Shown: one piece after another, positions 34,652 through 54,345 of the stretch
Layout: each line of letters opens with the position of its first letter
How positions within the stretch are numbered: position 1 is the first letter of the stretch
NCBI GenBank assembly: GCA_001657315.1
Contig: LYSV01000007.1
Coordinates: 1 to 64,000, forward strand
Source of the DNA: Flammeovirgaceae bacterium BBD 1991-12
GTDB lineage: Bacteria; Bacteroidota; Bacteroidia; Cytophagales; Cyclobacteriaceae
DNA length: 64,000 bases
Direction of reading: 5' to 3'
Notes under the pieces: model-generated
What the model saw: the letters and a program-made list of their open reading frames with translations, nothing else
Databases searched by the model: none
Told to the model about the DNA's origin: nothing
Program-made: the position numbers and the translations under genes

Positions 34652-37600
34652 TCAAACAGTCCGTGCAACACTATTCTTACCGGACTCGATCTTACGCAAT
34701 TCATCATCACAAGCCAGTTCTTTATGCAGGAAGACCCCCATTTGATACCTGTCATTCTTTAAAGCTTTGTCAAATGCACTGATCGCTTTTTTTGTTTTTC
34801 CCAGGCCTAATTCTCCCAGGCCTATCATGTAGTGACAGTGGTTCCGGTTACGAATATTCAGGTCTTCATCCCAGATCAGCAGGTCAGGCAGTGAAACGGC
34901 GAAATAATCTATTTTCACTTCGTCGAAAAGGTGTTTCTCGCCGTAGTCGATCAGGCGGTTAAATCTTCCTTTTGCTTCATCCATTCTGCCCAGTTTTTTT
35001 AAAGCCAGCCCCTGGTAAAATATCTTGTCAGGCGGCTGATCGTTGTAGAACATGGCCGGGCTTGGGTCAGACAGGCCTTTTGCGGCCATCTCCCAATGGC
35101 TTTGAGCACTTGTACTATCGCCCATTAGTTCGGAGGCACAGCCGAGCCAATAGTCTATATCATTTTCCTGTGCCCCGAAGAGCTTCCCTTCTCCCAGGTT
35201 ATGTGGGTAGATTTTGGCCTGCTGCAAGTGGCTTATGGCCTTTTCATACTGGGATTTTACTATTGCTTTTTTGGCAATCTCCACCTGAGCCATAAGGTAT
35301 TGGGCAGGCACTTTGCCTTCACCACCCTCCCATGGCTGGAATTTCCGGCCCATGATCAATTCCAGTGCCTTTTCATGTTCATGGAGCAGGTTGTAGAGGG
35401 TCACCCGCTCAAGGTAGAGGTCGTCGCGTTGCTCTACCAGGGATGGGTTTTCCTCTAAAAGTGCAAGACGTTCTTTTACGTCTTTATTGAGTTTTTTATG
35501 TAATTGATCCAATTCCATCAAAACCCGTGCGTCTGAATGGTCCAGCTCAAAGGCTTTGGACAGATATTCCAGCGCTTCATCCTTCCGATGCAGTTTGTTA
35601 TAGTAGACCAACGCCAGGTTCCGGGACACCACCGGGTAGGTATCGTCCAGTTCCACAGACTTTTTCCAGCATTCCAAAGCATCATGATATTGTTGATTGG
35701 CATACCAGAAGTTGCCCAGGTAGTAGAGCGCTTTGCTATCCGATGGGTCCCATGCTATTGCCTTTTCCAATACTACTACCTCCTCCAATCGATTGGGGAA
35801 ACAGTGGTCCGGGGACATTTTGGAAGCCAATTCAAAGAAATATTGGGCCTGTTCCGTTTCATCCAACATGAGGCAATTGTTTCCCATGAAATAGTACACC
35901 ATGGGATAAACACATGACCGTTCGTCTGAATACCATCTCAGTACAAGATTAGCCTCTTCATACAGGCCCGCGTGGCTGTAGTCCAGGGCATATTCAACAT
36001 AATTGTGAACATAGTCCCTGGAAAGCGCTTTTAATTCGGTTTTGATGGTCAGATCCTGGTTGATAAAATACTTTTCATACCTCACCCCGAAATTGAATTT
36101 ATCATACTGCAGCGATTCTTCGATCCATTGTAGTGCTTCGGCTTTGCGATTCAGTTTCCGGAGCAGTATCACCTTTAGGTGACGAGCTTTATGATTGAGC
36201 CAGTTACGTACCAGCGACTTTTCAACAAGTTCCAGGGCTTTTTCATAATTGCTCCTTTGGCAATCAATTTGCGCCAGATGAAAATATCCTGCATCTTGCC
36301 ACGCTGTGTTCCAGCAGGCTTTGAAGAAAGCATCATAGGCGGCGTCCTGTTTTTCCTGGTATTTCAGCGCCACTCCCAGGTTAAAGTAAGGTTCGCCATT
36401 ATAGGGGTTGGGATTACGCGCTGTAAGGGTGTCGATCGCTTTTTGAAAATGATGCGCCGCCTCGTTAAACTTCCCCTTTTTCAGCAGGTAAAGCCCCAAT
36501 GCATTATTGTTCCTTACATCGCCCGGCTCCCTGTTCAAAGCTTCCTGGTAGTATTCTTTGGGGTTATAGGTGGCATGCCTGTATTGCTCCAAATGCATAC
36601 CGGTCAAATACAACTGTTCCGTAGAGGTGATGTCTTTTGGGGCTTTAGCCGGTTTGGCTGGTTCAGGCGGGGGTTGCAAAGAAGGTTTTTTAGGCTGCCA
36701 GCACACAAGCTCCCGGCCGGTGTGGTCTTGCACACTAACCTCCAGTTCCTGTAAGGTGATGTCACCCACTGTGGCAGTAAGAGTACAGTCATTGAACGGG
36801 CTTAAATCAATGTTTTTATCCAATAACACCTTTTCCATACAGCAGAGCATGACCCGGCTACGAGGATACCCGGCAGTGACATGGATCTTAATAGAGGCTG
36901 CTCCTTCTACCACATCGAGGTTAACGAGGGCCTCTTTTGTGGCATTTTTCACCCTACCCACATTCCTGTAAGGCATAAAATACTGTTTGAAGCTACGCTC
37001 TTCGTAGGGTTGTATCCATGAAAAGTCCGGTTGATTATCCGTGTAGACGCCACACATCATTTCTATGTATGGCCCGTTGTGATCGGTCAGATTCCTGTCC
37101 CAGGCATGGCCAAAATGTCCATTTCCCCAGGTCCACTGTTTTTTACCGGGGGAAATATGATGGTCGGCCACGTGAAGGAGTCCGGCCTGTGTATCTTCTT
37201 CATACCCCCCTACAAAGTCATAGTCCGATTTGATGGCCATGTAGGAGGTGGGTACAGGGATGTTCTTGTAGCGGGATATGTCTACCCCGGCGGAATAATC
37301 CACTTTGTAATAAGTGCCTTTGGCTATGGGGAACCTGGATACGTCCCGCTTTCCATGGTCAAACACAGCGTTTACATCCGGCGGAAAAACAGAATAATAA
37401 TGGTCATTCACGGCTACCGCGGGGTTGGCCCACCAGAGAAAAGTCTGGGGATGAGGTGTGCGGTTGTAAAGGTGGGCTTTTACCTCCAGGTAGGCCTTAT
37501 CCGGGTAAAGGGTGAAACCTGCCATCCCTTTGGTGCGGAACATTCTCTCCACCTCGTTCACCCATACGGTTTTACTACCGTCCCTATTTTCTTCAATATA

Positions 37601-37999
37601 GCAATCCGTAGGATCAAAAGTACTGGGACGGTGATGCTGTGGCCAGTTAAACTCAATACCCCCTGAGATCCATGGGCCGGTAAGGCCGACCAGGGCGGGT
37701 TTTATTACTTCATTATAATAAACGAAATGCCGTTGGGCGATCTTGTCATAGGCCATTTGGATCCTTCCACCCAGGGCTGGAAGTACCATTATCTTTATAA
37801 AATCATTTTCGATGAAAACGACTTCCCATTCTTTATCGGTTTTTTGGTGGCTGATCTTCTCAATTACGGGGTGTGGGTATACTACACCGCTGCTGCCCTG
37901 GTATACCCTTTTTTCAAGGAATATGGGGTATTTTTCCGGTTCACCCACTTCGTAGGTCGGGATGACCAGATTTTCCTTCCATGCTTTAACTGCTTTCAT
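34652..37999 (-). CDS. DUF5107 domain protein with long TPR array, cytoplasmic
   Basis: 1115 residues and no signal peptide (MKAVKAWKENLVIPTYEVGE), so it is probably the only soluble cytoplasmic enzyme candidate encoded by the PUL operon. Residues about 40-350 form the DUF5107 domain, a galactose-mutarotase-like beta-sandwich (ALGGRIQMAYDK, SGGIEFNWPQHHRPS, HLYNRTPHPQTFLWWANPA, WTWGNGHFGHAWDRNL). From about 450 to the end, tetratricopeptide repeats occupy most of the protein (NNALGLYLLKKGKFNEAAHH, YLGNFWYANQQYHDALECWK and others). The biochemical role of DUF5107 is not established; mutarotase-like folds in PULs point to carbohydrate binding or cleavage. It lies between the two GH2 genes. Confidence 0.9.
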   Translation of the reverse strand: MKAVKAWKENLVIPTYEVGEPEKYPIFLEKRVYQGSSGVVYPHPVIEKISHQKTDKEWEVVFIENDFIKIMVLPALGGRIQMAYDKIAQRHFVYYNEVIKPALVGLTGPWISGGIEFNWPQHHRPSTFDPTDCYIEENRDGSKTVWVNEVERMFRTKGMAGFTLYPDKAYLEVKAHLYNRTPHPQTFLWWANPAVAVNDHYYSVFPPDVNAVFDHGKRDVSRFPIAKGTYYKVDYSAGVDISRYKNIPVPTSYMAIKSDYDFVGGYEEDTQAGLLHVADHHISPGKKQWTWGNGHFGHAWDRNLTDHNGPYIEMMCGVYTDNQPDFSWIQPYEERSFKQYFMPYRNVGRVKNATKEALVNLDVVEGAASIKIHVTAGYPRSRVMLCCMEKVLLDKNIDLSPFNDCTLTATVGDITLQELEVSVQDHTGRELVCWQPKKPSLQPPPEPAKPAKAPKDITSTEQLYLTGMHLEQYRHATYNPKEYYQEALNREPGDVRNNNALGLYLLKKGKFNEAAHHFQKAIDTLTARNPNPYNGEPYFNLGVALKYQEKQDAAYDAFFKACWNTAWQDAGYFHLAQIDCQRSNYEKALELVEKSLVRNWLNHKARHLKVILLRKLNRKAEALQWIEESLQYDKFNFGVRYEKYFINQDLTIKTELKALSRDYVHNYVEYALDYSHAGLYEEANLVLRWYSDERSCVYPMVYYFMGNNCLMLDETEQAQYFFELASKMSPDHCFPNRLEEVVVLEKAIAWDPSDSKALYYLGNFWYANQQYHDALECWKKSVELDDTYPVVSRNLALVYYNKLHRKDEALEYLSKAFELDHSDARVLMELDQLHKKLNKDVKERLALLEENPSLVEQRDDLYLERVTLYNLLHEHEKALELIMGRKFQPWEGGEGKVPAQYLMAQVEIAKKAIVKSQYEKAISHLQQAKIYPHNLGEGKLFGAQENDIDYWLGCASELMGDSTSAQSHWEMAAKGLSDPSPAMFYNDQPPDKIFYQGLALKKLGRMDEAKGRFNRLIDYGEKHLFDEVKIDYFAVSLPDLLIWDEDLNIRNRNHCHYMIGLGELGLGKTKKAISAFDKALKNDRYQMGVFLHKELACDDELRKIESGKNSVARTV

Positions 38000-38035: not shown

Positions 38036-40897
38036 CTATCCTTTTGCTTTTAAGCTGCCAGTAAACAATCCCATGATCTCCGCTTCGCTTAATGTTACTC
38101 CCGGGTCAAAGTCGCTACTGGCCATGTATTTTTCCAGGCTATACCTCAATTGCCTGGCTTCTATCCTTTTGTCAAGACCGGTGTGCAGGTCTATTCCTGA
38201 CACCAATAATTTACCTTTACCTACTTTGACCTCGAAGACCAGCGCTAACCGGCGGTTGGTGAACCAGTCGTCGATCACGCGTACAATCGGTTTTAGGGCC
38301 GGATCGAATTCATCGAGTAGTATTGCTTGCGAATGGCTCATGGCATCCCACCACTGCCAATTGGAGTGGTATTCCGTAGGAAAGTCACCCAGGGCAGGGT
38401 GACCGGGATCGCACAAGATGCCAAGTGTGTGTGGTTTTTGTTTACTGGTGTAGGCCGTGTTCCAAAAAATGCTGGAAAAACCAATGCCTACATTACCCCC
38501 CTTACCAGGCTTCACGGATCCTTTGGATGCTGCCAGTAAAACGGTGCCTCCATCCTGGAGGTAATGTAAAATTTCATTGTCCAGTACATTGACTACCCGG
38601 TAAGTATGTTGCTTTTCGATCTTCTCTTTTTCAACCGGGTAAACCCATATATCCCACGCGTTGGTATGCCCGGCTACCTCCACGGTAAGTATAAGCTTCT
38701 GAGCTTCCTTAACCACAGACAGACTTTGTACTATCTCACCCAGTTGTATTCCATTGCCCAAAGCAATGTCCGTGGCCGGGAAGTTCCCTCTTGCGATTTC
38801 CCTCCCATCTGTTTTGACAAGCCGCCATGATGAGCTGATACTTTTTAATTCCTTTGCTCCAAAATGTGCGACTTCGACCGTAGCATGTAAAGTGTCACGA
38901 TCGAGGTATACCCGTTTCTTTAGTCTGACAAGGGGAACCGTTTCATTGCAAAACCGGCGGTATTCCTCTGGCGATATGTATCCTTTTTCTTCCCAAAACG
39001 CATCGAGGATACCTATCAAAGCCGTGCCCTGCCCGGGAAAATCGTGGAGGTCCAATAACTGGAACCCGGCAAGGTCCCGGGTCCTGAGTGCGGCTTCGAT
39101 ATCCGCTTTGTAGCATAGCGCCTGTAATTTTCCCGAAGCCAGCAGGAAACTGTCGGCCAGGTGTCCCATGTGATTTTCCTCCAGCGTTTCCTTGAAAATT
39201 TCGAAGTTTTTAGGCTGTAACACGCCGGTGTATTTAGGGATCTCTTTATAATTCGGGTAGGCGCACCACTGCCCTATTTCGTGGCTCACAAACGGCACGG
39301 GAGTATTCTGGACGACATGGCTGTAGTCAAACACCGTTTGAGGAGGCTGGCTGTTGATCACGCTCTTCAAGCCTTGCCCCCAGCCCTGTATCCGCGCCTG
39401 GGCATGATTATAATAGTCCATGTTGTCGATGTAGGGCCATCCGGCGCCTCCCGTATAAACCCTTCGATTGTCCTGCTTCTTAAAGTGCCCGACAAACTCC
39501 TGCAAATATTCCTTTTGACGTTTGCCTCCCGGTTCGTTGCCGTAGGCCATCATACAAAACGAGGGGTGATTGCCATAGGCTTCCAGTATGTCATTGGCTT
39601 CCTTGTATAGCCACTGGTCAATGGGTTTTCCATCGCCAAGGGTTGAGGTGCGACTATTGGCCCAGCTTGAGGCTTCTACCTGCAGGTAAAACCCCATTTC
39701 ATCGGCAGCGTCAAAGGCCGCTTTGGGCGGGCACCAGGAATGAAAGCGCATGTGGTTCAGCCCATGGGATTTACAGATGGTAAATATTCTTTTCCACGCT
39801 TCCTTGTCAGTAGGAGGATAACCCGTTTTTGGAAAAATAGCACATTCCAGTGTGCCTCTTAGAAAAATGGGCCTGCCGTTTATAATGAATCGTTTCCCCT
39901 CTACCTTAAATTCCCGCATACCAAAGGTCTCTTCCCTTTTGACGGTCCCGGCCTGGGTAGTCAGTGAGAGGTGCAGGGTGTAAAGGTTGGGATTGAATTC
40001 ATCCCATAACAGGACGGAATCCCCCATAAGATAGTCTACCTTGATTTCTCTTTCCTGGTTGAAAGTGATCTCTTTCACCTGTTTAGGCAATAGGTTGTCA
40101 GGATTCTCCTTAGTGCTGGCTGCAATCACCAATTGGCCCTTTTGGGTCTCACCCGTAATGTTTTTTATCTGGGCTATGACCCCTACTTTTTTCCCGGTTA
40201 CGTCCGGGTACAGTTGAACCTTGTCAATGATTACGGGGGCTGTAGCTCGCAAGGCCATATCGCCCACTATTCCGTTCCAATTGGATTGGGTATTATCCGT
40301 GATGCTGTGGGCGCTGGCGCCGGGATCGATCTCTTTGATCCTGTTGTCTACCTGGATGGAAATGGTGTGCCTGCCGGGCCCTACCCCGGCAGGAAGGGCA
40401 TAGATGTGCGGCGTTCCCAGGCTGTTTTGCATGCCAAGGTAATGATCGTTTATCCACACATGGGTTTCCCAATGGGGACGTTCCAGCACCAACTCTATGT
40501 ATTTGCCTTCCCAGTGGGCAGGAATATCAATCTCTTTTTGGTACCAGGCAGCCCCTGTATATCGTTTTACAGGTTGTAACCAGAAGGGTATTTTGAGGTT
40601 TTCCTGTGTCCTGTAGCGCGCATATTTTTCGTCAAAAAACCACGAGCTGTCAAGTATTTCGCCGGTCCATTGGGTTTGTAAGGTTATCTCATATCCCAGA
40701 CCATTTTCAGCCATCGAGCCCGGTAGTTTTATTGTACTAGCCAGTTTTTTTTCATACCATCTTTCTGTGATCCCTACGTCCAGCGTATCCATGGCAAACA
40801 GCCATTGGCCGGAAAGGTCAATATGCGCACTTTTCTGCTCGCTACAGGAAAGCAGCAAATTAAGTAAAACGATGTATGCCGGTAGTTTAAGTTTCAT
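38036..40897 (-). CDS. Glycoside hydrolase family 2 lipoprotein (paralogue)
   Basis: 953-residue retaining glycosidase with a lipoprotein signal (LNLLLSCSEQ, Cys near 18). The domain order is the same as in the 31760-34552 gene: sugar-binding jelly roll (AAWYQKEIDIP near 155), Ig-like domain, then a TIM barrel with the acid/base in MAYGNEPGG (about residue 454) and the nucleophile in SHEIGQWCAYP (about 539), then a C-terminal amidotransferase-like part (GILCDPGHPALGDFP). It differs by an insertion near residues 75-110 and a longer acid/base loop. It begins nine bases after the MFS-sulfatase gene. The two GH2 enzymes probably cut different linkages or differently decorated sugars of the same glycan. 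Confidence 0.9.
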   Translation of the reverse strand: MKLKLPAYIVLLNLLLSCSEQKSAHIDLSGQWLFAMDTLDVGITERWYEKKLASTIKLPGSMAENGLGYEITLQTQWTGEILDSSWFFDEKYARYRTQENLKIPFWLQPVKRYTGAAWYQKEIDIPAHWEGKYIELVLERPHWETHVWINDHYLGMQNSLGTPHIYALPAGVGPGRHTISIQVDNRIKEIDPGASAHSITDNTQSNWNGIVGDMALRATAPVIIDKVQLYPDVTGKKVGVIAQIKNITGETQKGQLVIAASTKENPDNLLPKQVKEITFNQEREIKVDYLMGDSVLLWDEFNPNLYTLHLSLTTQAGTVKREETFGMREFKVEGKRFIINGRPIFLRGTLECAIFPKTGYPPTDKEAWKRIFTICKSHGLNHMRFHSWCPPKAAFDAADEMGFYLQVEASSWANSRTSTLGDGKPIDQWLYKEANDILEAYGNHPSFCMMAYGNEPGGKRQKEYLQEFVGHFKKQDNRRVYTGGAGWPYIDNMDYYNHAQARIQGWGQGLKSVINSQPPQTVFDYSHVVQNTPVPFVSHEIGQWCAYPNYKEIPKYTGVLQPKNFEIFKETLEENHMGHLADSFLLASGKLQALCYKADIEAALRTRDLAGFQLLDLHDFPGQGTALIGILDAFWEEKGYISPEEYRRFCNETVPLVRLKKRVYLDRDTLHATVEVAHFGAKELKSISSSWRLVKTDGREIARGNFPATDIALGNGIQLGEIVQSLSVVKEAQKLILTVEVAGHTNAWDIWVYPVEKEKIEKQHTYRVVNVLDNEILHYLQDGGTVLLAASKGSVKPGKGGNVGIGFSSIFWNTAYTSKQKPHTLGILCDPGHPALGDFPTEYHSNWQWWDAMSHSQAILLDEFDPALKPIVRVIDDWFTNRRLALVFEVKVGKGKLLVSGIDLHTGLDKRIEARQLRYSLEKYMASSDFDPGVTLSEAEIMGLFTGSLKAKG

Positions 40898-40906
40898 TTT
40901 GGCTAT

Positions 40907-43840
40907 TTATAGTGAAAGGCTTTGCTTCCAATGATCATAGTCAGTCGAGAGCTGTTCTACGATGCCCTGGGATTCCTCTGCCCGGTTATTTTGTTCGCTT
41001 TCGTCCTCTTTTAAGTTATACAAATAGGTTCCGGCCGGCAGGTGAATGCTCCGGTAAAAGTTATCCTGTTTTACCACGTGTAGTTTCCAATCCCCCTTGC
41101 GGATGGCCCACTCATTACCGGTATCCCAAATGAGTTGGTCATGGTGGTTGATACCTTTTCCATTGACCAATGGAAATAGACTTTTACCATCAATGCGAAG
41201 GGTGTCAGCAGCTTTTGAACCCGCGGCCCGTAAAAGGGTAGGCAGTATGTCCATGTGGGAGACGGGCTCGTGTATTACAGTGCCACCCTCCAGTTTACCG
41301 GACCACGACAGGGTGAAGATGGTGCGGATGCCTCCTTCCTGCAGGATGTATTTATGGCCTTTGAGTTTACCGTTATTGGCATAGGTGTTCTGGGAACCTC
41401 CATTGTCTGATACCAGTACGATCACAGTGTTGTCAAGCTTTCCTGTTTCTTCCAGGGCATCCAACACACGACCAATGTTGTCATCCAGACAATCCAGATT
41501 GGCGAGGTAGCGCTTCCGGCCCACAGGATCTTCCTCCTGTCGCCAGCAGGTTCTTGCATGGTAGTCTATGAAAGACTCTTCAGAGGGATCCCATTCGGGG
41601 AATTTTTCAATCCCGTATTTATCCAGGTACCGCTGTGGGGCCTGGTAAATGGGATGGTGAACGGCGTTGAAGGATAGCTCCATGAAAAAAGGGCGTTCAT
41701 CCCCTTGCCGCCGGACCTGTTTTATGGCCTCATCAGCAAAAAGGTCTGTTAAATAACCCTGGAAATCTTCCTTCTGCCTGTTTCTCCATAATGGACCGAA
41801 CTGTGACATCAGATCATCCTGGTGCCCTTCCACCCAGTTATCCTTTTCCGTGAGCTTAAAATAGTCGTGCCGGTGAGCGCAGAACCCCATAAATTCTTCA
41901 TAGCCATGATTCAAGGGGAACTCCCGGTGAGCGGTAGGGTCTTCTACCTTGCTGTTATTGTCCAATACCTGGGCGTAATGTGTCTTTCCAATTTTAACGG
42001 TACGGTAGCCTTCTTCCTGTAGAATCTCGGGAAGTGTGACTTTTGATGTGGGGAAGATGTTGCCACCATAGTAGTACGTACCCCACCGCTGCGGGTAGGA
42101 GCCGGTAATAATACCCTGACGGGAGGGGCTGCATATCGGTGAGGTGGCATACCCGTTGGTGAATCGTATCCCACTCTTTGCTATTCTATCCATCGCGGGA
42201 GTATTGACATCATCGGCGCCGCCATAGGCACCATAATCGGCATAGCCCTGGTCATCCGTGATGATGAGAAGTATATTAGGTTTCTCATTTGATACCCTGG
42301 TCACTTCATGGCATTGAGTGAATAACACCAGAATGCCCAATAGGTAGACCAGCTTTTTCGCCTTTTTTATATCCTCCCGCGAGGTGGCTGGTGCCAGCTT
42401 CTCTTCTATTTGTTCCAGAGTCTTTCCTTTTGTTTCAGGCAGCTTTCTTTTGATGAATAAAAAGCCCATGACGCAGATCAGGCTGTAGCCCCAAAAGGTA
42501 CCATAGGCACCTAACGCGCTATTAAGTAATGGGAAAGTGTAGGTGAGTATAAAAGAGGCCACCCACAAGGATAGTGTAGCTACAGACATGGCTAGCCCAC
42601 GTACTCTATTTGGAAATATCTCTGACAGCACGACCCAGGTTACCGGCGCCAGTGACATCGCATAGATGGAAATAGCCGCCACCACGAGTAGCAATACGGG
42701 TAGGCCATTCCATTGAAAGTAGTATGTAGTACCTAAAATGATATAGACTACTGCCAACCCACCGGACCCCAGCAGCATTAGTGATTTTCGTCCCCACTTA
42801 TCTACAGTTTTCATCGCTACCAAAGTAAAGGCCAGGTTAACGCTACCGGTGATCACGATGTTGAACAACATGTCGCCTACACTGTACCCGGCAGACCGGA
42901 AGATCTCTTCAGCATAATTAAAAATAATATTTATCCCGCACCATTGCTGAAAAACGGCTAATACGATACCCAGCCAGAGGACAGGTCTCAGGGTTGGAGT
43001 GGTCAGGTGACGGTAAGACACTTTTTCACTTTGAGCGTCAAATGATGCCCGGATGTTTTCCATTTCATGTTGGGCATAGGTGTTGTTGCCAATTTTACTT
43101 AACACTTGCAGGGCTTCGTTTTCGCGATGTTGTTTGGCTAAAAATCGTGGGCTTTCCGGAACCAGCAACATCAGGACAAAGAAAAGGGCAGCCGGCACCA
43201 GCTCTGCCCAGAACATCCATCTCCAGCCCGTTTGCCCGTTCCATGACTCAAGGATGGCCATGGGTGAGGCATCAGCGGGCACAGGTTCAGCGATCAGCCA
43301 GTTGATGATCTGCGCTGCCAGGATACCTACCACGATCGTAAGTTGATTGATCGCTACGAAGCGCCCCCGCAGTGCGGCAGGGGCGATTTCCGCGATGTAC
43401 ATGGGCGAAATGGTGGAGGCGAGGCCTATGCCAACCCCGCCAATAAGGCGATAGATGATAAAGACATAAAGGCTATTGACCATACCGGTACCAAAAGCGG
43501 ATAGGATAAACAGGAGGGCGGCAATGAGCAGAGGTATTTTACGGCCTAGCTTATCGGAGATAATGCCTGAAAAAGCGGCCCCGAAAATACATCCAACCAA
43601 TGCGCTGCTCATAGCCCAGCCCTGGAGTGAGGGGATATCACTGATCCCAAAAAACAATTCGTAAAAGGGCTTGGCGCCGCCGATCACCACCCAGTCGTAA
43701 CCAAAGAGCAATCCCCCCATCGCCGAAACGAAGGCCAGCGACAGGATATAGCCCATACGGTAGTTATTACTCCCCAAGGTGGTATAGAGAGTTGCATTGT
43801 CATCTGGCTTGTTATTGGATATATCCTCTGGTTGCTCCAT
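40907..43840 (-). CDS. MFS sugar transporter fused in frame to an S1 sulfatase
   Basis: One continuous frame of 977 residues. Residues 1-480 form a complete sugar-porter-type MFS protein: 12 helices, DKLGR near 96, PESPRF at 228-233, DKWGRK near 347, and PETKGKTLEQIEE at 468-480, where such transporters normally end. A short linker (481-491) leads to a hydrophobic stretch (497-509) ending in Cys510 (LVLFTQC), which looks like a lipoprotein signal or a thirteenth helix. Residues 520-977 are a full sulfatase with ILLIITDDQGYADYGAYGG and the maturation motif ICSPSRQG (catalytic Cys570), then LVSDNGGS. No ATG occurs between the domains. The fusion would tether desulfation to inner-membrane import, on the periplasmic face. 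Signal peptidase II might separate the two halves after translation. Confidence 0.93.
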   Translation of the reverse strand: MEQPEDISNNKPDDNATLYTTLGSNNYRMGYILSLAFVSAMGGLLFGYDWVVIGGAKPFYELFFGISDIPSLQGWAMSSALVGCIFGAAFSGIISDKLGRKIPLLIAALLFILSAFGTGMVNSLYVFIIYRLIGGVGIGLASTISPMYIAEIAPAALRGRFVAINQLTIVVGILAAQIINWLIAEPVPADASPMAILESWNGQTGWRWMFWAELVPAALFFVLMLLVPESPRFLAKQHRENEALQVLSKIGNNTYAQHEMENIRASFDAQSEKVSYRHLTTPTLRPVLWLGIVLAVFQQWCGINIIFNYAEEIFRSAGYSVGDMLFNIVITGSVNLAFTLVAMKTVDKWGRKSLMLLGSGGLAVVYIILGTTYYFQWNGLPVLLLVVAAISIYAMSLAPVTWVVLSEIFPNRVRGLAMSVATLSLWVASFILTYTFPLLNSALGAYGTFWGYSLICVMGFLFIKRKLPETKGKTLEQIEEKLAPATSREDIKKAKKLVYLLGILVLFTQCHEVTRVSNEKPNILLIITDDQGYADYGAYGGADDVNTPAMDRIAKSGIRFTNGYATSPICSPSRQGIITGSYPQRWGTYYYGGNIFPTSKVTLPEILQEEGYRTVKIGKTHYAQVLDNNSKVEDPTAHREFPLNHGYEEFMGFCAHRHDYFKLTEKDNWVEGHQDDLMSQFGPLWRNRQKEDFQGYLTDLFADEAIKQVRRQGDERPFFMELSFNAVHHPIYQAPQRYLDKYGIEKFPEWDPSEESFIDYHARTCWRQEEDPVGRKRYLANLDCLDDNIGRVLDALEETGKLDNTVIVLVSDNGGSQNTYANNGKLKGHKYILQEGGIRTIFTLSWSGKLEGGTVIHEPVSHMDILPTLLRAAGSKAADTLRIDGKSLFPLVNGKGINHHDQLIWDTGNEWAIRKGDWKLHVVKQDNFYRSIHLPAGTYLYNLKEDESEQNNRAEESQGIVEQLSTDYDHWKQSLSL

Positions 43841-43858: not shown

Positions 43859-45427
43859 TTAGTTTGTTTTTACCTTTCCTGTCAGGGTGGTAACTGACCT
43901 TGCCGGTATTGTTAACTTATTACCCTCTACTTTCTCATAGTCCAGGGTGTGTAGTTCAGAAGTAATGTACTTCCTGTCATATTGAATGTTTTTATCATGG
44001 ATCACGATCGTTTTTTCCATGCTGGATTGATTGATCAGAAGCACGACCACCTTTCCGTGGCTTTCATCATGATAAGCGGACACCAACACGTTTTCCTGTG
44101 TCACCTCGTGGGTGAAGTTTGTGCCTACGCGACGCATACCCGGCCTGATGAATTGTGAAAAGTTGCCAAAAGTCCAAAGCAGCCTGGATCCATGGAATTT
44201 CCCGTCATTCTTCATGGCAGTCCGGTTGTAAAGGTCATGTTCATCACCGGTATCCAGGTAGATCAACCCGTCTTTATAATCAAAAGTAGTAAGGGCAGTC
44301 CACCATTGCCAGGAGGAGGCCTGGGCCAGAACAATGTCTGCATGGATCACACGGGCAACGTAGAGGGCCGTATTCATACCCAGGTCTCGCTCATGACCGC
44401 TGCCGATCTCATCCGTTTTTTCCAGGATACAGAATTCAGACTGCCAGTAGCCGAGTTCTTTGTCTACAGACCGGCGCTTTTCGTCCAGTGCCTCGCGGCT
44501 GGTGACCAGCTTTTCTACAGGCCACGTGGTAAAGTAGCTATGACCTGAAATCGTCTTTTTTACATTAGGCAGGTCTCCAATGTACAGGGGAGACTCCTCT
44601 GCAAAGAAGGCCTCTACCTGGTTGCCTTGTAGCGGCTTGTCCTGTTCGCCGGTAAGGTAAGCGATACTGCCAGCTTCCCCGATCACGATTTGGGTATGAA
44701 GATTACGCTTTTGCAGGCTTTCTGACAAGTATTTCGTAAATGAAAAGATCTCTTCATTGGTAGCCGGTGTGCCTTCCTGGTTGCCATTGGACCAGTCCCA
44801 TTGCGGTTCATTGACTGGACTCAGGTAATCGAAATGTATGTCTTTTTGGTTTTGAAAGTAACTGATCACTTCTGCCAGGAAGTCCGCGTAGTCATCCATC
44901 TTGTCTTCCTGGATGTTCATGTGAGGATCTTCCTTTATGGAATATGCCTTTTGATTAGTGGACCAAAAAACGGGAGGAGCAATGGTAAAAGCCAGGAATT
45001 TTTCAACCCCCCGGGCTTTTGCGGCTTGCAGGAACCATTGCTGGCCCGGCTGTTTGGTCCAGTCGTATTGGCCGTTTTCGTTCAAAAAACACCCGACCCT
45101 TCTCCATTCATTTTTTATATCGGAGTTATCCCCTTGTTCTGTTGATCCCGCACCTATGTAAAAACGCCAAAGTGAGAGACCGATGCCCTTTGGGTTTCCT
45201 TTCTCGTCATATTCCTGGCTAAACAGCAGGTCGGCGATCTTCTCCCGCTTATGCATAGGCCAGTTTTTCCCGACAAACTGTGTTCGCCAGGCATCGGAAG
45301 CCCCAAAACCTTCCATGATCTGGTACCGGGTGTCCAGGTCTACCTTTAATTCTTGCTGTGCCTGTGTAAAGGTACAGGGGAGGACGAATAACAGGATAAC
45401 CAGTAACCCCTTCGTTACAGCTATCAT
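43859..45427 (-). CDS. Glycoside hydrolase family 30 enzyme (endo-galactanase-like)
   Basis: Secreted retaining glycosidase, 522 residues from the ATG at 45427, which follows a strong GGGAGGA ribosome site; a TTG-initiated frame from 45463 is less likely. The signal peptide ends TFTQAQ. GH30 hallmarks are IMEGFGASDAWRTQF near residue 38, LSLWRFYIGAGS near 85, the acid/base Glu207 in LSPVNEPQWDWS, and the nucleophile Glu331 in YWQSEFCIL. The C-terminal beta domain is short and complete (ITSELHTLDYEKVEGNKLTI). The closest described activity I can recall for this type is endo-beta-1,6-galactanase; that is a guess about substrate, not a demonstration. It is the fifth gene of the operon, four bases after the GH30 paralogue. 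Confidence 0.9.
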   Translation of the reverse strand: MIAVTKGLLVILLFVLPCTFTQAQQELKVDLDTRYQIMEGFGASDAWRTQFVGKNWPMHKREKIADLLFSQEYDEKGNPKGIGLSLWRFYIGAGSTEQGDNSDIKNEWRRVGCFLNENGQYDWTKQPGQQWFLQAAKARGVEKFLAFTIAPPVFWSTNQKAYSIKEDPHMNIQEDKMDDYADFLAEVISYFQNQKDIHFDYLSPVNEPQWDWSNGNQEGTPATNEEIFSFTKYLSESLQKRNLHTQIVIGEAGSIAYLTGEQDKPLQGNQVEAFFAEESPLYIGDLPNVKKTISGHSYFTTWPVEKLVTSREALDEKRRSVDKELGYWQSEFCILEKTDEIGSGHERDLGMNTALYVARVIHADIVLAQASSWQWWTALTTFDYKDGLIYLDTGDEHDLYNRTAMKNDGKFHGSRLLWTFGNFSQFIRPGMRRVGTNFTHEVTQENVLVSAYHDESHGKVVVLLINQSSMEKTIVIHDKNIQYDRKYITSELHTLDYEKVEGNKLTIPARSVTTLTGKVKTN

Positions 45428-45467
45428 TGGTTGATGGTCCTCCCTGGTCAAAATTGTGCTCAAGTTA

Positions 45468-47102
45468 CTATTTTAGTTTACCTACCAGCGTTGTTATGGA
45501 TCGAGGACCCACAACTATGTCTTCGATCGATACTATTTCAGCCTCGAGGTTTTTCGTGGCTGAAGTCGTATAAAGTGTGACCTCATCTCCTTCAAATTCA
45601 AAGTCGTCTCCGTAGTTGCCTATGGCTATTCTTCTTTGCGCGTCCGTATAGTTGATCATGACCATGACAAGCTGGCCTTCACCCTGGTATCCTGATATCA
45701 TAAATGATTTGCCGGCATCCTCGGCAGACGGGAATTCCGGATCGGACACATTTATCCGGGTCATACCGGGCCTTACAAAACGGCTGAAATTACCCAATGT
45801 CCATAGGTTTTTTTGTATTTCAAAGGTACCGTCAGTCTGTGACGGCCCGTCTGTATTCGGTTTCCAGAGGAGAAGGCTAAACCGGTCAGGATGATCCTGG
45901 AATTCGGAGTTATTCATTGCTGTCCAGTAGCTCCATCCTGTGGCGTTGGCATGTACCAGATCGATATGGATGATACGTGCCAGCCAGAGGGCGTAATCCA
46001 TTGGGGTGAATTGTGTCCAATCTCCTCCCTGTCGATAGTCAGCTCCAAGCAGGCTATACTCTGTCTGCCAGAATTCCAGGGTTGGGTCCACTGCGTTCAT
46101 TTTGGAGAGTAACTCTTTCCTGTGATTGATGGAAACGCCTACTGAAGGATTGAGCCAATAACTATGGCCGGCCACATATTTCGACATGCTGGACAGGCTT
46201 CCCACACTATTACTTCCCCCGCCGTAAAATTCTTGCAATTGATCTGAAGCTTCCGGATCGTTATCCTGCTCATAGAGCTCACGCAACGTCCCGGCCTCGG
46301 GAAGCATGATCTTGCTCCTGACTCCCAGCGCTTCGAACTTTTGATCGATCAGCCGGGTGATATCGGCAATTTCCTTGTTGGTTGCATAGGAACCGGACTG
46401 CACGGCGCTACCCACTTCGAATTGCCATTCATACTGTGGTTCGTTGAATGGAGTAAGTATTATAACAGGGTAACCTTCATCTTCTAAATGCTTTGTGACA
46501 GTAGCTAAATGGGTGGCAAAGTCTTCATAGTTGGACGGTTCGAGGTTATACCCCTCAACGCCCTCGGTACGGAATGTGAACCCATTCTTAGTCATGAAGT
46601 AAGGTGGAGAGTTTGTCCATAAGGTAACATAGGGCACACCGTAGTCCCTCGCCTTTTGCAAAAACCATCGCGAGCCTTCCTGCCTGGTCCAGTCGTAGGA
46701 GCCGTCTGCATTCAGAAAGCTTTCCGTTTCACGCTTCCAGTGATTGGAGGCATAACCGCTATTGACCTGGTCGGCAGCGCCCTCGCCTATGTTAAACCGC
46801 CACATCGTAAGTGCGATCCCCTCTGGGTTGCCTTCAGCGTCCATTTCATCACTGAACAGGAGTTTAGCCATCGGTTCTTTGGAAACATCCGGCCACCTCC
46901 CGACCCACTCGGCTGACCAGGCATCGGACGCGCCGAAGTGGTGTATGGTCTGGAATCGTTCATTTAACCGGACTTGTATTTCGTCTCCCTTACTAATAAA
47001 CCTTGGGTCCATGGGGTCGGTGCGCTCGTCCTCGCAGCTTACGAGGAAGCTCAGAAGGAAAAGACAAGCCAGACCGTAGTATATGAAGTGTGCTTTATTC
47101 AT
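45468..47102 (-). CDS. Glycoside hydrolase family 30 lipoprotein (paralogue, probably surface-exposed)
   Basis: 544 residues from the ATG at 47102 (MNKAHFIYYG), with a lipoprotein signal ending VSC and an acidic stretch after Cys23 (CEDERTD), a pattern linked in Bacteroidota to outward-facing surface lipoproteins. A longer frame from 47189 adds 29 residues that overlap the SusD gene and is disfavoured. Family motifs are HHFGASDAWSAEWVG, LTMWRFNIGEGAAD, the acid/base Glu221 in TPFNEPQYEW, and the nucleophile Glu348 in FWQTEYSLL. It is clearly homologous to the 43859-45427 enzyme but with long loops. As the first enzyme gene after susD it probably makes the initial endo-cuts on the surface. Confidence 0.9.
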   Translation of the reverse strand: MNKAHFIYYGLACLFLLSFLVSCEDERTDPMDPRFISKGDEIQVRLNERFQTIHHFGASDAWSAEWVGRWPDVSKEPMAKLLFSDEMDAEGNPEGIALTMWRFNIGEGAADQVNSGYASNHWKRETESFLNADGSYDWTRQEGSRWFLQKARDYGVPYVTLWTNSPPYFMTKNGFTFRTEGVEGYNLEPSNYEDFATHLATVTKHLEDEGYPVIILTPFNEPQYEWQFEVGSAVQSGSYATNKEIADITRLIDQKFEALGVRSKIMLPEAGTLRELYEQDNDPEASDQLQEFYGGGSNSVGSLSSMSKYVAGHSYWLNPSVGVSINHRKELLSKMNAVDPTLEFWQTEYSLLGADYRQGGDWTQFTPMDYALWLARIIHIDLVHANATGWSYWTAMNNSEFQDHPDRFSLLLWKPNTDGPSQTDGTFEIQKNLWTLGNFSRFVRPGMTRINVSDPEFPSAEDAGKSFMISGYQGEGQLVMVMINYTDAQRRIAIGNYGDDFEFEGDEVTLYTTSATKNLEAEIVSIEDIVVGPRSITTLVGKLK

Positions 47103-47122
47103 TGTTATCAAATTCAAATCCA

Positions 47123-48700
47123 TCAATATCCGGGGTTTTGCACCACGCGTCCCTGGGTAAGCTGTATCTCTTCGGGCGGTATGGGCCACAACAAATGCTT
47201 GTTGATATCGAAGTTGATACCTTTATCCTGTTCTTCGAAGGTGTTGGTGGTCTCGAAAGGATCGTTGTTTTCATCCAAATTGTATCGCACAAATGACCCC
47301 TGCTGGCCCATGACGAGGGCCAATCGTGGTGTGCTGTTTATCTTTTGACGCCGTAGGTCGTAGAGGCGATGCTGCTCCAGCGCTAGTTCCAATCTTCTTT
47401 CTTTCCAAATAGCGTCCCTCAGCGCATCTCCAGAGAGGGACTGGTCGGTATTGAGGCTCACACGGCTTCTTACCTGTTCCAATGAGGCGAGTGCCGCGGA
47501 GGTATTGTTATTAAAAAAGGCGGCTTCCGCATGGATCAGGAGCAGGTCGGCGTAACGGATATGCAGCCAGCTCAAAGGGATCTGCCCGCGTTGGTAAGGA
47601 TCAGGACGCTGGGCTACAGGTACGTATGTTTTCCTGCTGGTCCTGCCCGACTTATTCTCATCGGGTTTGCCATCAAACTCCGTAACGTCAGGGTCGCCGA
47701 ATACCGGTTCTCCATGCCTGATGATGGTGGAACGCAGGCGGATGTCATCTCCTTCATCCAAAAAGGCCTGCTCCAGGTGACTGGTAGGGGACCCCCATCC
47801 CCAGCCCTGGTCGCCCCGGCTGCCCTGGGTGATGGTGAATTGCCCTCCAATATCCGGGAACGTCTGGTCGGTGATGTACTCTACTTCGAAGATGGATTCT
47901 GGCCCGTGGTGGTTATTCACATTCCAAACGTTGGCAAAATCAGGCTCTAATTGGTATTCTCCTGAGTTGACCACGTTTTCCGCCATGGTTTGTGCCTCTG
48001 ACCATTTCTCCTGAAAAAGATACGCTTTGGCGAGGTAGGCCTGTGCTGCGCCACGCGTGGCCCGGCCCATGTCCTGGGCTGCATAGCTGCTTTTCAGGGG
48101 CAGTGCTTCTGCAGCGTCGGACAGGTCGGCTTCGATCTGGTCCCAAACCTCCTGTTCAGTGGCCCGGGTGCGATTCAGTACCTCTGCTTCCTGGAGTTCG
48201 GCATAAGTGGTTACTATAGGAACGCCTCCGTAGTTTTTAACCAATTCAAAATAGAAGAAGCCCCGCAGGAATTTTGCCTCACCCAATAGGCGTTGCTTCA
48301 CCTCTTCATCCATCTCTACTTCAGGTACCCTCTCGAGGGCAATATTTGCACGGGTAATGCCAATGTAGTTATGTTCCCAGAAGCTATTGATGTAAGTAGA
48401 CCCCGGGAATACATTGTAATGGGCTATCCCGGTGATGTCGGGGCGTGGCTGGATAGTATTTCCAGACCACATATCATCCGTGGCCATTTCACCAATGGCC
48501 CTGAAGAAATTAATCTGGTGCCAGCTTTCTCCATTCACTTTTTCATAGATACCGTTCACAAAACGGGTTGAAGCTTCCTCATCCACGAAGAAATCATCCA
48601 ATTCCTGCCTTGCCCGGATGGGCTGGTCGAGGAAATCATCGGTACAGGATGTGAAAGTGGTGATCACCAGTACCATCAATATTTTATATGTATTTTTCAT
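47123..48700 (-). CDS. SusD/RagB family glycan-binding lipoprotein
   Basis: Surface lipoprotein that captures oligosaccharides and caps the SusC channel. It has 525 residues from the ATG at 48700 (a TTG two codons upstream is the only longer option). The lipobox Cys19 is followed by TDDFLDQP, a typical SusD opening. TPR-like helices hold the family segments (FLRGFFYFELVKNYGGVPIV near 142, LLIHAEAAFFNNN near 400, and WKERRLELALEQHRLYDLRR near 450). It begins 21 bases after the SusC stop, as expected for an obligate pair. Specificity is not readable. Confidence 0.95.
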   Translation of the reverse strand: MKNTYKILMVLVITTFTSCTDDFLDQPIRARQELDDFFVDEEASTRFVNGIYEKVNGESWHQINFFRAIGEMATDDMWSGNTIQPRPDITGIAHYNVFPGSTYINSFWEHNYIGITRANIALERVPEVEMDEEVKQRLLGEAKFLRGFFYFELVKNYGGVPIVTTYAELQEAEVLNRTRATEQEVWDQIEADLSDAAEALPLKSSYAAQDMGRATRGAAQAYLAKAYLFQEKWSEAQTMAENVVNSGEYQLEPDFANVWNVNNHHGPESIFEVEYITDQTFPDIGGQFTITQGSRGDQGWGWGSPTSHLEQAFLDEGDDIRLRSTIIRHGEPVFGDPDVTEFDGKPDENKSGRTSRKTYVPVAQRPDPYQRGQIPLSWLHIRYADLLLIHAEAAFFNNNTSAALASLEQVRSRVSLNTDQSLSGDALRDAIWKERRLELALEQHRLYDLRRQKINSTPRLALVMGQQGSFVRYNLDENNDPFETTNTFEEQDKGINFDINKHLLWPIPPEEIQLTQGRVVQNPGY

Positions 48701-48721
48701 CGTCAATTCCTTTTATGCGTA

Positions 48722-51700
48722 TCAGAAAGTAACATTTAATCCCAGGAGTAGTGTCCTCGATAAGGGATAGGAACCAAAGTCAATCCCATACCCGGATATA
48801 ATATCTCCTCCCTGTATCACTTCGGGATCAAAACCGGTGTACTCCGTGAAGGTGAGCAGGTTTTGAGCGGAAATGTAAAACCGCAGTCTCTGGATAGATT
48901 TGAGAGGCAATGTATACCCCACCTGGATGTTTTTAAGTCTTACGAATGTGCCGTCCTCGATAAGAAAATCAGAAGGTACCTGGAAGTTACCATTCTGATC
49001 GAGATTGGTCAGTCTTGGGATGTCCGAGTCGGGGTTGGTCTCGCTCCAGGCGTCACTGAACAGCCCCTCGGCTACATTGACGTCCTGTACTCCGGAAAGC
49101 CTGAATATCCGGGTATAGTTAATGACTTCATTGCCGAAATTCCCGTACCATTGCATGGAAAGGTCCCAGTTTTTATAACCCAGGTCAATGTTGACACCAG
49201 CCGTAAAATCAGGAAATGGATTTCCTAAAATGGTAAGGTCACCTTCGTCATTAATCTGGCCGTCTCCATTTTGGTCTACAAAACGGATGTCCCCGGGCTG
49301 TGCATTGGGCTGGATCAAGGTGCCGTCATTGGTAGTATGAGAATTTATCTCGGTTTGACTTCTGAAGATCCCGTCCGTTTTAAAGCCGTAAAAGGCCCCT
49401 GTGACACTGCCTACCTCCATGATCTTAAGGAAGCGGTTGCCAAGGTCTTCGCGTTTGGTCAGTAAGATCTGGTCATTGCCGGGAGCGATTTCGTCCACGA
49501 TGCTTTCGTTTGTGGTAACGGTCACGCCAACATTGTAGGTAAAGTCACGGATATTGTCACCGTAGTTTAGCGCTATGTCCCAGCCTTTGGATTCGAAGCT
49601 GCCGATGTTTTGCCATACAAGGCCGGGTACACCGGTATAGTTAGGCAATTCCACCGGGAAGAGCAGGTCTCTGGAGTTCTTAACATACCGCTCCACTGAA
49701 AATCCTAAGCGACTGTCCCAAAGCTCACCTTCCAAACCGATATTAATGTCTTCCACCGTTTCCCATTTCAGCTCTTCATTGCCAAACTGGGCCAGGAAGT
49801 TGGTGACCACTCTTTCACCACCAAAAACATAAAAGCGATCATCCACGGCAAAAAACCTTCCATCGGCAGGTACATTTTGATTCCCGATCTGACCATAACC
49901 TGCCTTAAGCTTGAGAGAGCCGACGAACGCAGGTGAAAAGAAGTCCTCTGCCGCTATATCCCAGGCGGCGGAAACACTAGGGAAGGTACCCCAGCGGTTA
50001 TTTTCAGGGAAGGTAGACGATGCATCCCTTCGGACGGCAGCCGTCAGGAAATACCGGCCTTTGAAGTCGTACATAACACGGCCGAGGTAGGAGAACAAGG
50101 TACGAACGGTTTCTGTACCCCTTACTCCCTGTTCGGTGAAAAAGGGGTGCCTGTCAAGGATGGTACCGGTAGCTGCATCCACATACCGCAATTCCGGTTT
50201 CAGGCCGGGTACATCTTCGCGGTGTGCCTGTACCAGGTTATTCCTGAACTCCTCGGCTACCACCCCTGCCATAGCCGTGATAGAATGATCTCCGATGACT
50301 TTTTGATAAGTAACAGTATTATTCCACACCCAGTCAAACCTGGAATCGAATCTTCTCCGTACATCATTCACCAACCGCTGTTCGTTTGGGTCGATGTCAA
50401 ATTCAGGTCTGAAAACATCCCTTCGCTGGCTTGTGAAATTTATGCCAAATTGTGTTCTTAAGGTAAGTCCGTTGATAGGCTTGTACTCAAAGGCTGTATT
50501 GGAAAACAGGCCAAAGAAGCGGGTTTCGTCAAATTGCCGAGCCACCGCAGCTACAGGGTTGGGGACCGCATTCCTTGACCTTGCATAAATGCTAAACTCA
50601 TTTCTGCCCACTCTTTCATCCGTAGGGATGAACACATCGGTGATTGGGTCTATTCGCAGCATATTCCACAATTGGTTGGGCGTAGTTTCCCAATGCTCGT
50701 ACCGTGGGCTAAGATCTTGCTGGAATTTGAGTTTATCGTTAATATGATAATCGATGTTGAACCGGCCTGTGATCCTTTTCCACCAGCCCTGGTCATAATA
50801 GTTGGATTCCTGGTCGAATAAGCTGAGGCTACCGGCAAAGAGCAGATCTTCTTTCCCACCGTTAATGGACAGGTTGTAGTTTTGGATAGGGGCGTAATCC
50901 CGGATCACTTCATTCCACCAATTGGTACCTTCACCAAATTCCCCGGGATTTTCATATAGCGGTATATCACCATCGTTAATTCGTCGCTGGTTGACCACAT
51001 TAGCATATTCAGTGGCGTTGGCTGAAGGGATCTCCTGGAAATTCATCAAGCCATAAGACCCGTCAAATTGTATGGTGCCTGTCTGCCCGGCACTTCCTCT
51101 TTTGGTAGTGATCAGGATCACGCCGTTGGATCCACGAGAGCCATAGATAGAAGAAGCCGATGCGTCTTTTAAGATCTGCATATCCTTGATGTCGTTTGGA
51201 TTCAGGAAGTTGAGATTGGAGCCTGTAGGTAAGGGTATTCCATCCACAACAATCAGCGGGTCCGTACCGCCGCCCCTTCCGGTTACTACACCCCGGATCA
51301 ATACCCTCGGTGCGGCGCCCGGGGCGCCTCCGCCGGAAATAACCTGTACCCCTGCGACTCTTCCCTGCAAAGTTTCGGATACATTACCCGTTACCATCCG
51401 GGTCAGGTCCTCACCATCCACGGATACTATGGAACTACTAATGGATTTTTTGGATGACTCTCCATAGCCTATCACCACGATCTCCTGTAGCCTGGTAATA
51501 TCCGGGGTTAGAGAAATATCGATTACCGAACGGTTGGCCACTTCGATCTCTTCCGTGACAAACCCGATCATACTTACGATCAGCACAGCATTACCGCCGG
51601 CATTGAGCTGGAACTTTCCATTGACATCGGTGACCGTGCCATTTACAGTACCTCTTTCCAGAATGTTTACCCCGGGAAGAAGCTCACCGTCTTCTGATGA

Positions 51701-51811
51701 CGTGATGACCCCTGAAACGGTTTGCTGCTGAGCGTAGGCAGGAGCCACCAGCAGCAGGGCGATAAAGATCCCTGCGAAGGTCAGCACTCGTGTGTTGTAA
51801 AATGTTTTCAT
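48722..51811 (-). CDS. SusC/RagA family TonB-linked outer membrane transporter
   Basis: 22-strand outer-membrane channel that imports glycan fragments with energy from TonB. It has 1029 residues: a signal peptide ending APAYAQ, a carboxypeptidase-like regulatory domain (residues 33-105, GVITSSEDGELLPGVN), a plug (GEDLTRMVTGNVSETLQG, then the SusC signature SASSIYGSRGSNGVILITTK near 210), and the barrel ending LLLGLNVTF. The length is normal and no frame break is seen. It is located between the SusE/F-like gene and SusD, all in one direction, and defines the PUL. Confidence 0.96.
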   Translation of the reverse strand: MKTFYNTRVLTFAGIFIALLLVAPAYAQQQTVSGVITSSEDGELLPGVNILERGTVNGTVTDVNGKFQLNAGGNAVLIVSMIGFVTEEIEVANRSVIDISLTPDITRLQEIVVIGYGESSKKSISSSIVSVDGEDLTRMVTGNVSETLQGRVAGVQVISGGGAPGAAPRVLIRGVVTGRGGGTDPLIVVDGIPLPTGSNLNFLNPNDIKDMQILKDASASSIYGSRGSNGVILITTKRGSAGQTGTIQFDGSYGLMNFQEIPSANATEYANVVNQRRINDGDIPLYENPGEFGEGTNWWNEVIRDYAPIQNYNLSINGGKEDLLFAGSLSLFDQESNYYDQGWWKRITGRFNIDYHINDKLKFQQDLSPRYEHWETTPNQLWNMLRIDPITDVFIPTDERVGRNEFSIYARSRNAVPNPVAAVARQFDETRFFGLFSNTAFEYKPINGLTLRTQFGINFTSQRRDVFRPEFDIDPNEQRLVNDVRRRFDSRFDWVWNNTVTYQKVIGDHSITAMAGVVAEEFRNNLVQAHREDVPGLKPELRYVDAATGTILDRHPFFTEQGVRGTETVRTLFSYLGRVMYDFKGRYFLTAAVRRDASSTFPENNRWGTFPSVSAAWDIAAEDFFSPAFVGSLKLKAGYGQIGNQNVPADGRFFAVDDRFYVFGGERVVTNFLAQFGNEELKWETVEDINIGLEGELWDSRLGFSVERYVKNSRDLLFPVELPNYTGVPGLVWQNIGSFESKGWDIALNYGDNIRDFTYNVGVTVTTNESIVDEIAPGNDQILLTKREDLGNRFLKIMEVGSVTGAFYGFKTDGIFRSQTEINSHTTNDGTLIQPNAQPGDIRFVDQNGDGQINDEGDLTILGNPFPDFTAGVNIDLGYKNWDLSMQWYGNFGNEVINYTRIFRLSGVQDVNVAEGLFSDAWSETNPDSDIPRLTNLDQNGNFQVPSDFLIEDGTFVRLKNIQVGYTLPLKSIQRLRFYISAQNLLTFTEYTGFDPEVIQGGDIISGYGIDFGSYPLSRTLLLGLNVTF

Positions 51812-53454: not shown

Positions 53455-54345
53455 ATGGACAGTTTTACACAAAAGAGAGAAGGTTTCATGGGGCAGAAAA
53501 TGGTCGTCCTGCCCAAGAATATACTTAAGACGGTACGCAGCAATCCGATGGCCAGGTTACTCTACACCACGGATATTGGATTCTATCCCTATGCCCTTAA
53601 TCACTACAGAAGCCGGACGCAGGGAGCCGGAGAATACATACTGATCTACTGTGTAGAGGGTAAGGGCACTGTGAAGCTGGGACAGGAGGCACATACGATC
53701 ACCCCCAACCATTATTTCATTATTCCTAAAAAGCAGGGGCACAGTTATCAATCTGACTCTGAACACCCGTGGAGTATTTACTGGATCCACTTTGACGGCA
53801 AGCTGGCTGACCTTGTCTACGGTAAATTCACGCTGCTACAGCCAGGGCCATCAGGCATTCCTATGGAAGAGGAAAGGATAAGACAGTTTGAGAGCCTTAT
53901 TGAGCTCCTGGAACGAGGCTATTCCCAAAACCACATTGAATATGCCACTTTCCTGCTTTTTCATCTCATCAGTACTTTTATATTTCACGAAGAGCACTTC
54001 TTCACCCATCGAAAGCTGGAAAGGGACACACTTACAGAGCAGATCATCGATTTCCTTGGGCAGAACCTTCACACCAGCCTGGAAGCCGGTGACCTGACCG
54101 GTAAGTTCAATATGTCATATTCCGGTCTGCATGCGGCTTTTAAAAGACAGACAGGTTATTCTATCATGAACTTCTTTTATATGATGAAAGTGCAAAAAGC
54201 CTGTGAGCATCTTAATTTTACTGACCTAAGTGTGAAGGAGATCGGTTTTAAGCTGGGATTCAATGATCCTCTTTATTTTTCCCGGTTCTTCAAAAAAAAC
54301 ATGGGGTTATCCCCTTCGGAATACCGGAAGGACCTGGTGGGGTAA
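53455..54345 (+). CDS. AraC family transcriptional regulator of the PUL
   Basis: One-component DNA-binding regulator of 296 residues. The N-terminal cupin sensor spans about residues 35-135 (YILIYCVEGKGTVKLGQ, then YFIIPKKQGHSYQ and WSIYWIHFDG). The C-terminal double helix-turn-helix covers about 190-293, with LTGKFNMSYSGLHAAFKRQTG, then VKEIGFKLGFNDPLYFSRFF and GLSPSEYRKD. It is divergent from the PUL operon and the only regulator in the region, so it probably activates the operon in response to a sugar imported into the cytoplasm. This differs from the hybrid two-component or SusR-type sensors often seen with large PULs. Confidence 0.93.
   Translation: MDSFTQKREGFMGQKMVVLPKNILKTVRSNPMARLLYTTDIGFYPYALNHYRSRTQGAGEYILIYCVEGKGTVKLGQEAHTITPNHYFIIPKKQGHSYQSDSEHPWSIYWIHFDGKLADLVYGKFTLLQPGPSGIPMEEERIRQFESLIELLERGYSQNHIEYATFLLFHLISTFIFHEEHFFTHRKLERDTLTEQIIDFLGQNLHTSLEAGDLTGKFNMSYSGLHAAFKRQTGYSIMNFFYMMKVQKACEHLNFTDLSVKEIGFKLGFNDPLYFSRFFKKNMGLSPSEYRKDLVG

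Follow-up and report, generated by a model that had tools for sequence, protein, structure and literature searches.

The question raised by this locus is whether a sugar importer and an exported sulfatase are joined in one polypeptide, and what such a polypeptide would become in the cell. The sequence analysed, hereafter the window, comprises the first 64,000 nucleotides of contig LYSV01000007.1 of Flammeovirgaceae bacterium BBD 1991-12. Positions 40907-43840 of its minus strand form a single open frame of 977 codons, which runs from an ATG at 43840 to a TAA ending at 40907 and contains no internal stops. Pfam analysis of the translated frame identified two full-length domains, a Sugar_tr domain at residues 36-481 (positions 2-451 of the 452-position profile; E 1.4e-112) and a Sulfatase domain at residues 521-874 (positions 1-300 of 301; E 4.9e-57). 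The importer half scores 360.3 bits against TIGR00879, for which the cut-off is 237.8, and its closest solved structure is the D-xylose:H+ symporter 4ja3 (E 5.2e-97), while that of the sulfatase half is the exo-4S-kappa-carrageenan sulfatase 6prm (E 3.4e-56). The formylglycine maturation motif of S1 sulfatases (PF00884) is C-x-P/A-x-R. In the window Cys570 stands within CSPSR (residues 570-574, positions 42119-42133), where the orthologues described below carry CNASR or CDASR. The occurrence of two full-length domains in one open frame is far beyond chance. The halves are delimited as follows:

42395-43840, minus strand: XylE-like MFS sugar porter half (PF00083), residues 1-482, from Pfam, the 4ja3 match and five orthologous importers
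40907-42310, minus strand: S1 formylglycine sulfatase half, residues 511-977 and the stop codon, from Pfam, CSPSR and the 6prm match

The fused gene is flanked by genes of carbohydrate metabolism on the same strand, in the order SusC, SusD, two GH30-like proteins, the fusion, a GH2 protein, a DUF5107-TPR protein, a second GH2 protein and two more sulfatases. The principal neighbours, together with a regulator gene, are:

53455-54345: AraC-type regulator gene
48722-51811, minus strand: SusC (Pfam)
47123-48706, minus strand: SusD (Pfam)
43859-47189, minus strand: two GH30-like glycoside hydrolases, upstream of the fusion (PF14587)
38036-40897, minus strand: GH2 protein resembling exo-beta-1,4-galactosidase, the next gene of the cassette (Pfam; NCBIfam NF049890, 1232.7 bits, below the cut-off of 1500)
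34652-37999, minus strand: DUF5107-TPR protein, a cassette member (Pfam; present in 5/5 orthologous loci)

Adjacent SusC and SusD genes, accompanied by carbohydrate-active genes on one strand, mark a polysaccharide utilization locus (PUL) in the Bacteroidota, and this arrangement is found in the window. The neighbouring genes point to a sulfated galactan-like substrate. The initial annotation had described an unbroken importer-sulfatase fusion, with both domains complete, inside a PUL, and each of these points is borne out: by the 977 codons without a stop, by the near-full-length profile matches, and by the SusC/SusD pair, GH30s, GH2s and sulfatases on a single strand.

Orthologous loci were found in five genomes, those of Aestuariivivens marinum (L068/L158), Carboxylicivirga sediminis (L090/L159) and three further members of the A. 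marinum family (L155-L157), the loci of the two named species having come from among the best 80 of 468 confirmed loci in a scan of genome contigs. Their sulfatases are 64-70 % and their importers 63-69 % identical to the corresponding halves of the window protein. In all five, the sulfatase gene comes immediately after the importer gene, the two being separate and each having its own stop and start. The distances between the importer stop and the sulfatase ATG are 8, 9, 8, 5 and -4 nt, and the ATG invariably opens a lipoprotein signal with its Cys at residue 15-21. In one of the A. marinum-family genomes (G827; L156) importer and sulfatase occupy one frame, interrupted by just one TAA, and the window protein aligns straight through from residue 27 to 976. 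DUF5107 and GH2 genes occur downstream of the pair in 5/5 loci. The DUF5107-TPR protein, with approximately 1100 residues and 61-66 % identity in all five (L155-L159), is a constant member of the cassette, while in one of the five (L155) the GH2 protein, 63 % identical to that of the window, occupies the same place adjoining the sulfatase. In the 5-7 kb read on the upstream side of the five pairs, no homologues of SusC, SusD or GH30 were detected, and the wider PUL is thus not common to these relatives.

The orthologous sulfatase is sparsely distributed. It was detected in one of 395 genomes of the class, namely the window's own (E limit 1e-120), in four of 349 genomes of the A. marinum family, A. 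marinum included, and in one of 71 genomes of the C. sediminis family, which is C. sediminis itself (E limit 1e-110 in both families). None was found in the other sampled genomes of the window's genus, to which Fulvivirga sp. M361 and Fulvivirga bin PL25a appear to belong. As the genes are separate in all five orthologous loci, the fusion is the derived state and seems to be confined to the window's genome. Homologues encoded by two genes with a normal sulfatase start, which the initial annotation had named as an observation against the fusion in close relatives, are thus present in 5/5 orthologous loci, but these are not close relatives and the window sequence is not thereby wrong.

With the whole fused protein as query, no uninterrupted frame across the joint was found outside the window's own genome in samples of 58, 390, 395 and 266 genomes, which overlap and were searched with strict E limits and few candidates scored per genome, so that diverged fusions could be missed. 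Across these four overlapping samples and the five unfused orthologous loci, an importer-sulfatase fusion was found in one genome only. Two rows spanned the joint with one stop inside, G018 and the above-mentioned G827. The first (also L011/L038) was rejected as a fusion, with a TAG separating the importer from an in-frame downstream sulfatase that is approximately 30 % identical to the fused sulfatase and 47 % to a neighbouring sulfatase of the window (30290-31750). Two longer reported frames were likewise rejected, as the DNA encodes a separate importer of 477 aa in G106 (reported frame 1054 aa) and of 463 aa in G145 (1574 aa). The G106 importer ends at a TGA, which is followed by five further in-frame stops and, 174 nt on, by the start of a separate 510-aa sulfatase; a reported open-frame length can therefore bridge stops. 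No report of an importer-sulfatase fusion was found among the titles listed for open-licence papers.

Other combinations of these genes were also encountered. In six of the nine loci inspected (L012, L039, L041, L043, L052 and L060), a different sulfatase, sharing 25-31 % identity with that of the window, is encoded upstream of the same importer at a distance of less than 350 nt. These loci were not counted as orthologous, and they indicate that importer and sulfatase genes became paired in more than one order. In L160 a more distant importer is succeeded by another, separate sulfatase gene. The window's own genome encodes, on contig 191 (L169:1825-4611), a 928-aa protein that joins a sulfatase (residues 46-438) in frame to an aldose 1-epimerase (577-913), both enzymes of the polysaccharide-locus type. 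This second type of fusion is also present in G013, of the same genus, as an uninterrupted frame of 919 residues with 76 % identity, which suggests that such fusions can be stable in the genus. A paralogous sulfatase on contig 121 (L170:22-1941), 48 % identical over residues 513-976, has an F5/8 type C domain at its C-terminus.

The DNA at the joint, ...GAG AAG CTG GCA CCA GCC ACC TCG CGG GAG GAT ATA AAA AAG GCG AAA AAG CTG..., is translated as EKLAPATSRED-I491-KKAKKLVYLLGILVLFTQC510, and three elements can be distinguished:

42371-42394, minus strand: spacer APATSRED, residues 483-490, corresponding to the importer stop and intergenic bases of relatives
42368-42370, minus strand: ATA codon, Ile491, aligned with the sulfatase start codon of the orthologues
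42311-42370, minus strand: putative former lipoprotein signal, residues 491-510, IKKAKKLVYLLGILVLFTQC, now internal, from the alignment of five orthologous N-termini and hydropathy

The importer tails of relatives extend 8-27 residues past an ETKGK motif, with 11-14 residues in 78 of the 104 counted, a count that includes the same locus under two ids and from which 39 of 143 rows were excluded (no ETKGK-like motif in the piece; some readings began before the upstream stop). The old importer stop is thus likely to have been inside the spacer. Counted from the ATA codon, Cys510 is residue 20, within the range of the orthologues. When the window protein is aligned from residue 491 with the five orthologous N-termini, the lipobox Cys is invariant in 6/6 sequences and the hydrophobic stretch falls onto the orthologues' lipoprotein signals. 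The segment combines KKAKK, LVYLLGILVLF and the Cys, yet has Gln at position -1, as do two of the 129 candidate signals in the fetched loci. The two proteins with such signals, in L010 (from the window's own genome) and L063, continue in sulfatase-like fashion (PNILLIL and PNIIVFLV). A Met-started signal at an N-terminus is absent from the sulfatase half, the signal being internal with no ATG, GTG or TTG in place. The joint is read as an importer tail followed by what appear to be a former intergenic spacer and a former lipoprotein signal, the start of which is now ATA. An internal lipoprotein-like signal that had lost its start had indeed been proposed, and the ATA at codon 491, the Cys at codon 510 and the aligned orthologue signals all agree with that proposal.

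The C-terminus of XylE-type porters is cytoplasmic, and five K/R residues (486-496) precede the hydrophobic core, from which the sulfatase would be expected in the periplasm. The KKAKK charges thereby support the placement on the periplasmic face that had been suggested from the sequence. The core comprises only some 11 residues, with a best 11-residue hydropathy mean of 3.0 and a best 19-residue mean of 1.27, while the porter segments above the 19-residue cut-off of 1.35 reach 1.36-2.40. Such a short core suits a cleavable signal, and a cut at Cys510 is thus slightly favoured over a stable tether; processing by LspA is nonetheless uncertain, as Gln at the lipobox -1 position is rare. Cleavage at Cys510 by Lgt and LspA, which would yield importer and lipoprotein sulfatase in a 1:1 ratio, may be the somewhat better expectation, with continued tethering of the sulfatase to the importer having a chance just short of even. 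A fold model built from an 11-row alignment (mean pLDDT 67.2, pTM 0.50), with pLDDT below 50 for residues 483-518 and a low-confidence helix at 488-509, was not used as evidence of topology.

An error of assembly or sequencing, the genome in reality having two genes like its relatives, would account for the absence of the fusion from all other sampled genomes and for the two genes in 5/5 orthologous loci, and the source is a draft assembly comprising 8,586,047 bases in 282 contigs, of which the window is contig 222. In a scan of 1176 single-base edits across codons 471-519, with a canonical start required at least 13 codons before the Cys, 707 edits gave an importer stop without a canonical start for the sulfatase and 23 gave both. 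However, 21 of these 23 leave an importer of 511-512 residues, the tail of which extends approximately 38 residues past ETKGK in comparison with at most 27 in relatives, and in the other two the nearest start lies 28 or 35 codons ahead of the Cys, which is residue 15-21 in the orthologues. The closest approach by a single edit, a deletion for which the start is a GTG 28 codons before the Cys, is unlikely to be the true sequence. Since both between-gene signals, the importer stop and the usual sulfatase start, are missing, correcting a single base does not easily bring back the usual layout; an orthologue-like arrangement would require two errors, or one error combined with a non-canonical start, and an artefact is considered improbable. 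The sulfatase might also still be initiated separately, at ATA491 or CTG497, alongside some fused product, as the ATA stands where relatives have ATG and at the right distance to the Cys. AUA is, however, a very weak start codon in bacteria, and from codon 479 to codon 510 the in-frame ATG, GTG and TTG codons are limited to TTG501 and GTG505, which lie inside the hydrophobic core and are too near Cys510 to open a signal peptide. The sequence GGGAGG, noted in the initial annotation, is only 2 nt from ATA491, and Shine-Dalgarno sequences are generally not recognised by Bacteroidia ribosomes (PMC9976891; also PMC6847099); GGGAGG thus provides no evidence of a start, and a role as a ribosome site is not supported. 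Furthermore, G rather than A is found at -3 and -6 of ATA491, while A at these positions favours initiation in F. johnsoniae (PMC6847099). Separate initiation of the sulfatase therefore looks unlikely, and the chance that it operates beside the fusion is slight.

Loss of the usual sulfatase start could alternatively be the first step of gene decay, with the fusion a non-functional read-through, and both the restriction of the fusion to a single genome and the presence of more than 20 other sulfatase places in that genome, which might compensate, would fit this explanation. Against it, the frame is open across the whole sulfatase, and the residues invariant in six sequences include C-x-x-S-R and other active-site positions. 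From alignment column 37 onwards, the window sulfatase differs at 19 of 255 columns that are invariant in the other five sequences; on the same measure, two other divergent orthologues differ at 22/258 and 15/251, and the counts for the three closer orthologues are 3-7 of 239-243. In the importer half the window differs at 9/225 otherwise invariant columns and the others at 1-12 of 217-228, such that these changes are more numerous in the window's sulfatase half (19/255) than in its importer half (9/225). There is no excess of odd changes at invariant sites and, in this comparison, no clear sign of sulfatase decay, and this explanation, too, is held to be improbable. The fusion is known from one genome, and no close relative for dating it or testing selection on the fused form was found in the sampled genomes. 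A further alternative accepts the fusion and its origin in an operon pair that lost its stop and start, but has the lipoprotein signal turned into a membrane anchor. The product would be a single-chain machine, in which a 12-helix importer carries a periplasmic sulfatase on a thirteenth membrane segment and desulfated sugar is handed over at the importer mouth. The topology allows this, as KKAKK would be cytoplasmic, the spacer could plausibly serve as a soluble linker, and importer and sulfatase adjoin in 5/5 orthologous loci; yet the core of some 11 residues is rather short to act as a stable anchor, Cys510 has been retained, and the arrangement is known from one genome. The importer-enzyme unit of the initial annotation thus stands insofar as the topology allows it, but with the signal-length core and the retained Cys510 a permanent tether is not the most probable result, and such a machine, although credible, is unlikely.

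The preferred reading is that the locus is probably a derived, in-frame fusion of a packed operon pair, which has lost the stop and start between its genes and encodes one precursor, somewhat more likely than not cut at Cys510. A tight pair within a PUL, a sugar porter followed by an S1 sulfatase lipoprotein, would have become one gene through loss of the importer stop codon and the sulfatase start codon in this lineage. The ribosome would produce a single 977-residue precursor, the KKAKK-hydrophobic segment of which would re-enter the membrane and send the sulfatase to the periplasm, with Lgt and LspA then processing the precursor at Cys510. The periplasmic sulfatase could remove sulfate from oligosaccharides or sugars, and the importer take up the released sugar. 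The sequence most likely reflects a genuine, derived gene fusion, found in one genome and made of ordinary parts joined in an unusual way. The locus may thus represent an operon pair caught fused, with the unfused state preserved in relatives, one of which (G827) is in one frame but for a single stop. It raises the questions of whether Lgt and LspA can process a lipoprotein signal behind twelve membrane helices, and whether an enzyme fixed to an importer helps a polysaccharide degrader to keep its products. Should the product stay joined, it would, as far as is known, be a new architecture for carbohydrate uptake.

Each part of the window protein has well-described counterparts. The importer matches the XylE-type MFS sugar porters (PF00083; PDB 4gby, 4ja3) over their full length (E 5.2e-97), but while XylE ends soon after its last helix, the window importer continues for 495 residues with an exported enzyme. 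Similarly, the sulfatase shares with the S1 sulfatases near 6prm and with S1_19 (9hh3) the full sulfatase domain with C-x-P-x-R, whereas the five orthologous S1 sulfatases have an N-terminal signal in front and that of the window a 12-helix importer. The five-locus MFS-sulfatase cassette corresponds to the window in its orthologous importer and sulfatase, their order, and the DUF5107 and GH2 genes that follow, but differs in having two genes, an N-terminal sulfatase signal, and no SusC/SusD or GH30 in the upstream stretch read. FbcH of Bradyrhizobium is a cytochrome b/c1 precursor in which a polytopic protein and an exported protein are connected by an internal signal and separated by a signal peptidase cut. 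The window protein resembles it in that an internal signal links a polytopic membrane protein, within one frame, to an exported one. FbcH, however, belongs to a respiratory complex and is cut by signal peptidase I, while the window combines an importer with a lipoprotein enzyme, in one genome.
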